A stretch of 37,457 nt of DNA, from positions 1-37,457 of the forward strand of contig NZ_JAFAUS010000306.1 in NCBI RefSeq assembly GCF_019243155.1, in the 5' to 3' direction. The notes under the pieces are model-generated. The model saw only the letters and a list, made by a program, of their open reading frames with translations. It had not been told where the DNA came from and did no database searches. Source of the DNA: Mycobacterium sp. GTDB lineage: Bacteria > Actinomycetota > Actinomycetes > Mycobacteriales > Mycobacteriaceae. Position numbers and translations under genes: made by a program. This document shows positions 14,617-17,769 of the stretch, one piece after another. Every line of letters begins with the position of its first letter. The first letter of the stretch is position 1.

Positions 14617-14759
14617 AAAGGAGCAGTTTGGTGTCAGCGGCGACGAGCCTGTTGGACAGTCCAGTGGGCGCAGAGCGGTTGGCTTGCTTCCTTGCGAGTC
14701 CGAGTGCGCTTCGATTGCCGCCCGGTAGCACCGCAGCAGAAGGGACCGGGGTTATCCAA
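14617..14759 (+). other. Probable N-terminal extension of SigH (long isoform), with its ribosome-binding site
   Basis: AAAGGAG at 14617-14623 is a strong ribosome-binding site 7 nt before a GTG at 14631, in frame with sigH. Translation from there adds 43 residues ([20 protein letters not shown] at the start) before the usual MADSDGV. The usual ATG at 14760 has only GAAGGGA about 14 nt away. Streptomyces SigR makes an unstable longer isoform from a stress-induced promoter, and a similar mycobacterial SigH form has been reported; this layout matches that design. Confidence 0.6.
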
Positions 14760-15404
14760 ATGGCCGATTCAGACGGCGTCATAGACGAAGAGAGTCCCCA
14801 ACGATCTGAGGAATCAGATGCGGAATTGACGGCGCGGTTCGAACGCGACGCGATTCCGCTGCTCGACCAGCTTTACGGTGGTGCGTTGCGCATGACGCGG
14901 AATCCCGCGGACGCCGAAGATTTGCTGCAAGAGACGATGGTAAAAGCGTATGCGGGATTCCGCTCCTTCCGGGCCGGCACCAACCTGAAGGCGTGGCTGT
15001 ACCGGATCCTGACCAACACCTACATCAACAGCTATCGCAAAAAGCAGCGTCAACCTGCGGAGTATCCGACCGAAGAAATCACCGACTGGCAGTTGGCGTC
15101 GAACGCCGAACATTCGTCAACCGGGTTGCGTTCGGCCGAGGTCGAAGCGCTGGAATCGTTGCCGGATTCAGAGATCAAAGACGCGCTGCAGGCTTTGCCG
15201 GAGGAATTCCGGATGGCGGTCTATTACGCCGACGTCGAGGGGTTTCCGTATAAAGAAATCGCGGAAATCATGGAGACGCCGATCGGGACGGTAATGTCTC
15301 GGCTGCACCGCGGCAGACGCCAGCTGCGCGGGCTGTTGGCCGACGTGGCCAAAGAGCGAGGCTTCAATCGCGGTCACCAGGCGCACGAGGAGGTGTCGTC
15401 ATGA
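14760..15404 (+). CDS. sigH: ECF sigma factor SigH
   Basis: The 214-aa protein from ATG 14760 (MADSDGV) is nearly identical to recalled M. tuberculosis SigH through the core. Region 2 includes [20 protein letters not shown] and [20 protein letters not shown]. Region 4 has [20 protein letters not shown] and [14 protein letters not shown], the -35-binding helix. SigH directs the response to thiol-oxidative and heat stress (thioredoxin and chaperone genes). It is co-transcribed with its anti-sigma gene rshA, whose ATG overlaps the sigH TGA. An alternative start at GTG 14631 may also be used. Confidence 0.97.
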
Positions 15405-15700
15405 ACGAGTTTCCCAGCAAGGGCGACGCGTGCCCGAACGACGATTCCCACGGCGGCGTCGGCTGTGCCGAGGTAATCGCCGAGGTATGGACCCTGCTCG
15501 ACGGCGAATGCACACCCGAAGCCAAAGAAAGGCTGCGCCAGCACCTCGAGGCTTGCCCCGGATGCTTCAAGCATTACGGGCTCGAAGAGCGCATCAAAGC
15601 GCTGGTCGCCAGCAAATGCAGAGGTGAGAAAGCCCCCGAGGGATTACGTGAGCGGCTGCGCCTGGAGATCCGGCGCACCACCATCATTCGGGGTGTGTAG
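15401..15700 (+). CDS. rshA: Zinc-binding anti-sigma factor RshA
   Basis: A 99-aa ZAS-family protein. The HLEACPGC segment carries the HxxxCxxC zinc and redox motif; an upstream Cys (GECTPEAK) and a C-terminal Cys (ASKCRGEK) are also present. In M. tuberculosis RshA binds SigH under reducing conditions and releases it on oxidation. AGGAGGT lies 6 nt before the ATG, within the sigH end, and the ATG overlaps the sigH stop (ATGA), so the two are translationally coupled. Confidence 0.95.
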
Positions 15701-15710
15701 TAGCCGTCGG

Positions 15711-15785
15711 CTAGGAATTTGGCCGCTTGCCGTGGTTGGCCTTGCTGTGCTTGCGGTCGCGCTTCTTCCGGCCTCGTTTGGCCAT
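15711..15785 (-). CDS. Ribosomal protein bL37 (24 aa)
   Basis: On the minus strand ATG 15785 to TAG 15711 encodes MAKRGRKKRDRKHSKANHGK plus RPNS, 24 residues, 11 of them Arg or Lys. This matches, to my memory, bL37, the mycobacterium-specific large-subunit protein found in the M. smegmatis ribosome structure. GGAGGT lies 8 nt before the ATG, an ideal site. The gene is convergent with rshA (10 bp apart) and divergent from the TB7.3 gene. It is too short for the ORF track and easy to miss. The peptide should sit in 23S rRNA near the peptidyl-transferase region. Confidence 0.9.
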   Translation of the reverse strand: MAKRGRKKRDRKHSKANHGKRPNS

Positions 15786-15996
15786 TTTGGAAAACCTCCG
15801 TGGATTGAAATGCTCGTGATAGCGGGCGCTTGGCGCCGATAGCTTGCCTTCTAGTCTCTCACGGGAAGTGTTTGCACCGTCACGGGCCCACACGCCGCGC
15901 TCGACGCAGGCCCTATGGTTCGATATACGAAAGCCTGATACAAGTTTGAGGGACCAGCAGCCAGCCTGCGCAAATGGCCGAACGAGTGGGGTGAAG

Positions 15997-16212
15997 ATGG
16001 CCGAAGACGTGCGCGCCGAGATCGTGGCCAGCGTGCTCGAAGTCGTGGTGAACGAGGGTGACCAGATCGGCAAAGGCGACATCGTGGTGCTGCTGGAGTC
16101 GATGAAGATGGAAATCCCGGTTCTGGCCGAAGTCGACGGGACCGTCAGCAAGGTGAGCGTGTCGGTGGGCGATGTCATCCAGGCGGGCGACCTCATCGCA
16201 GTGATCAGCTAG
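15997..16212 (+). CDS. Single-domain biotinylated carrier protein TB7.3
   Basis: The ATG at 15997 gives 71 aa, the same length as Rv3221c (TB7.3). The biotin attachment site is LLESMKMEIP, with the central Lys, inside a biotinyl-lipoyl barrel repeat (NEGDQIGKGD and SVGDVIQAGD half-motifs). GGGGTGA lies just upstream. It stands alone with no carboxylase gene nearby, so it may serve as a carrier for an acyl-CoA carboxylase encoded elsewhere or as a minor biotin protein. The track start at 15844 is too long. Confidence 0.95.
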   Translation: MAEDVRAEIVASVLEVVVNEGDQIGKGDIVVLLESMKMEIPVLAEVDGTVSKVSVSVGDVIQAGDLIAVIS

Positions 16213-16269
16213 TCCCGAAAAGCTTGAACCCTCCTGCCCGCTGCCGGGGAACGACCCGGGGAGTCATTG

Positions 16270-17769
16270 ATGTCAACTCTCGGTGATCTGCTTGCCGAAC
16301 ACACGATGCTGCCGGGCATCGCGGTGGATCACCTGCATGCGGTGGTCGGGGAATGGCAACTACTGGCCGACCTTTCGTTCGCCGATTATCTGATGTGGGT
16401 CCGGCGCGATGACGGGGTGCTGGTGTGCGTTGCGCAGTGCCGGCCCAACACCGCGCCCACGGTTCTGCTGACCGACTCGGTCGGTACGGTCCTTGGCGCC
16501 GACCGGTTGTCGATCGTGGCCGAGACGTTCGACTCCGGCACCGCGCAGCGGGATTACGATGCGGCACAAGAGAATTCGTGGCTGCCGGGTCCGCACGTCG
16601 CGTCCTCCCCGGTGCGGTACGGCGGCCAGGTGGTTGCGGTGCTGACCCAGCATCAAACCGCGGAAACGGCCGACCGGACGTCGGGCCACCTGGAGACCGC
16701 CTACCGGGAGTGCGCCAGGGATCTGGTGCAGATGCTCGCCGAGGGCGCCTTTCCCGACGTGGGGGACGTGGTCATGTCCCGCTCCACACCGCGCGCGGGC
16801 GACGGTTTCATGCGCCTCGATGTCAACGGCGTCGTCGCCTACGCCAGCCCCAACGCGGTGTCGGCCTATCACCGGATGGGCCTGACGAGCGATCTCGAGG
16901 GCCGCAATCTGGTCAAGGTGACGCGCCCGCTGGTCTCGGACCCCTTCGAGGCACAAGAGCTGGCCGAGCACGTGCTCGACCTGCTGGCCGGCGGCAAGAG
17001 CATGCGGATGGAGGTCGACGCCGGCGGCGCGACGGTGCTGCTACGCACGTTGCCGCTGGTGGTGCACGGTCAGAGCGCCGGCGCCGCGGTGCTGATCCGC
17101 GACGTCACGGAGGTCAAGCGCCGCGACCGCGCCCTGATATCGAAGGACGCCACGATCCGCGAGATCCACCACCGCGTGAAGAACAACCTCCAAACCGTGG
17201 CGGCGCTGCTGCGCCTGCAGGCGCGCCGAACGGTCAATGCCGAGGGGCGAGAGGCCCTGATCGAGTCGGTGCGGCGGGTGTCGTCGATTGCCCTGGTTCA
17301 CGACGCGCTGTCGATGTCGGTGGACGAGCAGGTGAACCTCGACGAGGTGATCGACCGGATCCTGCCGATCATGAACGACGTGGCGTCGGTGGACCGCCCG
17401 ATCAGGATCAACCGCGTCGGCGACCTGGGGGTGCTGGACTCCGACCGGGCGACGGCCCTGATCATGGTCATCACCGAACTGGTTCAGAACGCGATCGAGC
17501 ATGCCTTCGACCCCGCCGCGCAGGAAGGGTCGGTGACCATTCGGGCCGAGCGTTCGGCGCGCTGGCTCGACGTCGTGGTGCACGACGACGGGCGCGGGCT
17601 GCCCGAGGGCTTCAGCCTGGAGACGTCCGACAGCCTCGGCCTGCAGATCGTGCGGACCCTGGTGTCGGCCGAGCTCGATGGCACGCTGGGCATGCGGCAG
17701 GGCTCCGCCCGCGGCACCGATGTGGTGCTGCGGGTGCCGATCGGCCGCCGGGCCCGGCTAATGCTGTAA
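16270..17769 (+). CDS. pdtaS: Cytosolic sensor histidine kinase PdtaS
   Basis: A 499-aa kinase with no membrane span. An N-terminal GAF-like domain (residues 1-160) and PAS-like domain (about 175-285) precede a HisKA_2 dimerisation segment, REIHHRVKNNLQTVAALL, with the phosphoacceptor His near residue 300. The HATPase has ITELVQNAIEHAF (N-box) and DDGRGLP (G1). It is orthologous to Rv3220c, which phosphorylates the antiterminator PdtaR, encoded elsewhere. GGGGAG precedes ATG 16270; the track begins one codon earlier at TTG 16267. A two-hairpin terminator region follows. Confidence 0.95.
   Translation: MSTLGDLLAEHTMLPGIAVDHLHAVVGEWQLLADLSFADYLMWVRRDDGVLVCVAQCRPNTAPTVLLTDSVGTVLGADRLSIVAETFDSGTAQRDYDAAQENSWLPGPHVASSPVRYGGQVVAVLTQHQTAETADRTSGHLETAYRECARDLVQMLAEGAFPDVGDVVMSRSTPRAGDGFMRLDVNGVVAYASPNAVSAYHRMGLTSDLEGRNLVKVTRPLVSDPFEAQELAEHVLDLLAGGKSMRMEVDAGGATVLLRTLPLVVHGQSAGAAVLIRDVTEVKRRDRALISKDATIREIHHRVKNNLQTVAALLRLQARRTVNAEGREALIESVRRVSSIALVHDALSMSVDEQVNLDEVIDRILPIMNDVASVDRPIRINRVGDLGVLDSDRATALIMVITELVQNAIEHAFDPAAQEGSVTIRAERSARWLDVVVHDDGRGLPEGFSLETSDSLGLQIVRTLVSAELDGTLGMRQGSARGTDVVLRVPIGRRARLML

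Follow-up and report, generated by a model that had tools for sequence, protein, structure and literature searches.

A gene for the 24-residue ribosomal protein bL37 lies tail to tail with rshA at the sigH locus of a Mycobacterium genome

From this analysis, we delineated the arrangement of genes around a very short minus-strand open reading frame in the window, the whole stretch of 37,457 nt of Mycobacterium DNA analysed here (contig NZ_JAFAUS010000306.1). The sigma factor gene sigH and the anti-sigma factor gene rshA lie on one side of it, and the genes for the biotin/lipoyl carrier protein TB7.3 and a PdtaS-like sensor kinase follow on the other (Table 1). The reading frame is convergent with rshA, the two facing each other tail to tail across a gap of 10 nt, and consists of ATG, 23 further codons and TAG, translated to MAKRGRKKRDRKHSKANHGKRPNS.

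Table 1 Features of the bL37 locus in the window, and the corresponding relic in Mycobacterium lepromatosis.
Feature	Position	Strand	Basis
sigH, ECF sigma factor	14706..15404	+	TIGR02947, 352.7 bits (cut-off 251.55)
rshA, mycothiol-system anti-sigma factor	15401..15700	+	TIGR03988, 103 bits (cut-off 62.5)
bL37 gene, 24 aa	15711..15785	-	ATG at 15785, TAG at 15711-15713; translation, PDB matches, NF047428, 388/397 genomes
Shine-Dalgarno sequence GGAGGT	15794..15799	-	8 nt 5' of the bL37 ATG; sequence
TB7.3 biotin/lipoyl carrier protein, divergent neighbour of bL37	15997..16212	+	NF004547, 120.6 bits (cut-off 75)
PdtaS-like sensor kinase	16267-17769	+	
bL37 relic, M. lepromatosis FJ924	L070:6972-7040 and L073:2473-2541	-	

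The sequence upstream of the start codon, including the GGAGGT, reads ...CGGAGGTTTTCCAAAATG, and a GGAGG-like site precedes the ATG in most of the related loci compared at the codon level as well. Because the frame stays open far upstream, over 161 codons (15711-16196), the start at 15785 is set by this ribosome-binding site together with the length of the homologues. Scanning positions 15600-16100 for sigma-70-type promoters and terminators yielded none.

A search against all PDB chains identified the 5o60 group (M. smegmatis 70S ribosomes, 26 entries; E 8e-11) and the 7kgb group (12 entries; E 1e-10) as the closest matches, each identical to the window protein in 23 of 24 residues, with the 8crx group more distant. 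Both close relatives are also 24 residues long. The M. smegmatis bL37 (PDB 5o60 chain 3; UniProt A0QTP4) differs solely at the last residue (S/A), and 7kgb chain v, which we take to be the M. tuberculosis protein, at position 13 (H/Y). Chain V of 8crx, presumably bL37 of Cutibacterium acnes, has the same length and binding pocket and reaches 23.3 bits against the window protein; C. acnes bL37 was described as 67% identical to that of M. smegmatis (PMC10085706). At 51.5 bits, the window protein clears the 30-bit cut-off of NF047428, the NCBIfam equivalog model for “50S ribosomal protein bL37”, and the match spans every model position (1-24 of 24). The planctomycete bL37 model NF047429 gave 18.4 bits against a cut-off of 40 and thus stayed below threshold, and Pfam, which holds no bL37 model, returned DUF6254 as the sole match, far below its cut-off. 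Within the host genome there is one genuine bL37 copy; the second match found by the genome search is weak (E 0.2).

The original prediction of a 24-aa bL37 gene between rshA and the TB7.3 gene, preceded by a GGAGGT site and located at the SigH locus, is therefore borne out by the translation, the structures and the family model, and the near-identity to M. smegmatis bL37 that it had put forward was found on comparison with the chains of mycobacterial 70S structures. Its description of the gene as hidden holds in part, given that the M. smegmatis copy has a UniProt entry and NCBI maintains a dedicated model. As bL37 has been present in ribosome structures since 2017 and a standard annotation model exists, the window gene is not a discovery; it is an ordinary, already known mycobacterial bL37 gene in its usual place.

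To describe its distribution, we searched Mycobacterium genomes for bL37 and found a match in 145 of 149 in a first sample and in 388 of 397 in a wider one, a count that takes in the relic of M. lepromatosis described below; where listed, nearly all matches were 96-100% identical. Most of the genomes lacking a match were not scored as losses: in one the contig stops inside pdtaS (G408), in another just past rshA (G126), and most of the others are fragmentary assemblies. In an order-level sample, bL37 was found in 47 of 61 genomes, five of them from Mycobacterium. Three families of this sample yielded no match in six, two and two genomes (f2, f8 and f10, respectively), reflecting either true loss or divergence past the reach of the model. 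One Mycobacterium genome (G059) encodes a second bL37-like protein in an ORF of 38 codons on contig C124 (L071:2086-2202, plus strand; MSKRADKKRARRNNNANHGKRPNSGKRLRATKLAITRR), which is located away from sigH-rshA, scores 41.8 bits on the bL37 model, above the cut-off, and is 67% identical to the window protein. A few further genomes among the 397 also have two bL37 matches.

In M. lepromatosis FJ924 (G075, NZ_CP083405.1), nothing like bL37 is left but a relic at the locus where the gene would be expected. It is about 57-59% identical, has lost its start and stop codons, carries alterations in several conserved basic residues and, with 19.7 bits, falls under the family cut-off. The neighbouring sigH contains several stop codons and rshA is fragmented, while both TB7.3 and PdtaS remain intact. 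Another Mycobacterium genome, of 3.1 Mb (G385), has kept a bL37 that is 96% identical, and its sigH and rshA are intact. In the genome that we take to be M. leprae TN (G115), many large stretches of contig C1 (3,268,203 bases) consist of N; a missing match there is not evidence of loss, and the status of bL37 in M. leprae was therefore not judged. According to the genome paper, M. lepromatosis retains 52 of 53 ribosomal protein genes, and the passage stating this does not mention bL37 (PMC9248898). Our searches of the open-licence literature found no paper reporting a loss of bL37 in leprosy bacilli.

An open reading frame of only 24 codons, in an intergenic gap and with many mechanical ORFs of similar size nearby, could in principle have arisen by chance. 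This origin is refuted by the homology to bL37 and is vanishingly improbable: it would have to account for the identity to structurally solved chains at 23 of 24 positions, for a score well above the cut-off of a curated model and for matches in almost all of the Mycobacterium genomes searched. It is also at odds with the pattern of substitution, since the 81 codon differences from the window gene in nine same-genus loci comprise 67 synonymous and 14 non-synonymous ones. At second codon positions, these nine copies of equal length show no differences at all.

The second alternative concerns the neighbourhood. In every one of the 17 Mycobacterium loci checked, bL37 is set between the pair SigH and RshA and the pair TB7.3 and PdtaS. 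Outside of Mycobacterium, RshA lies within 1.5 kb in 22 of 25 loci and SigH in 17 of 25, so that the linkage, which is seen again in further families of the order, must be old. This recurrence, and the decay of bL37 together with both sigH and rshA in M. lepromatosis, would be expected if bL37 were a member of the SigH stress regulon that tunes the ribosome during thiol-oxidative stress. Convergent transcription, however, places bL37 on the opposite strand and hence outside the sigH operon and its transcript, and the joint decay is weak evidence given the roughly 1,500 pseudogenes of that genome. A scan with the SigH consensus detected zero sites upstream of bL37 but carries no weight, as it also passed over the promoter of sigH itself, the positive control. 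The open-licence literature searched contained no paper tying bL37 to SigH. We consider membership in the regulon very unlikely; the tie of bL37 to the SigH stress response is one of neighbourhood only. Somewhat less improbable, yet still doubtful, is the idea that bL37 is dispensable and that its retention tracks the SigH system, in which case its decay with sigH and rshA in M. lepromatosis would have left an unfilled pocket next to the peptidyl transferase centre.

Returning to the reading as a genuine bL37 gene, the protein was named in M. smegmatis, where it folds into a roughly 13-residue helix with a loop and occupies a pocket of H39, H40, H41/H42, H72 and H89 (PMC5876184). It sits there beneath the tip of the 5S rRNA, against 23S rRNA helix H89 and by the peptidyl transferase centre (PMC5876184, PMC10085706). 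C. acnes bL37 contacts the tip of the 5S rRNA as well as the backbone of H89 and was suggested to coordinate functional centres (PMC10085706), and the exact function of the protein has been described as not established (PMC6133939). In Borrelia burgdorferi, an N-terminal helical extension of uL30 fills the rRNA pocket of bL37 near H89 (PMC10618245); this extension is part of another protein and compares with bL37 as an analogue in filling the pocket.

The window gene encodes a very basic 24-residue peptide in which, by analogy, some 13 N-terminal residues would form a helix and the C-terminal part a loop with the ANHGKRPN motif. Incorporated in the 50S subunit, it would fill the pocket formed by H39, H40, the base of H41/H42, H72 and H89 under the 5S rRNA tip and, most likely, steady H89 and the peptidyl transferase centre. 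The reading frame, the family membership, the conservation and the synteny are direct observations; use of the same 50S pocket in this species is probable, judging from the published M. smegmatis and C. acnes structures that define the binding site itself. Overall, we regard it as virtually certain that the minus-strand frame is the chromosomal gene of the actinobacterial large-subunit protein bL37, acting within the 50S subunit, with structural support of H89 as its most likely role. The decayed copy in M. lepromatosis suggests that the protein is dispensable in at least one lineage, which makes a strictly essential role doubtful.

A ribosomal protein of 24 residues can thus be recognised from raw sequence, although here protein, structure and family model had all been established before. 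The apparent loss in M. lepromatosis of bL37, a ribosomal protein near the peptidyl transferase centre, bears on whether the protein is essential, and likewise on modelling the action of antibiotics against leprosy bacilli with M. smegmatis ribosomes.
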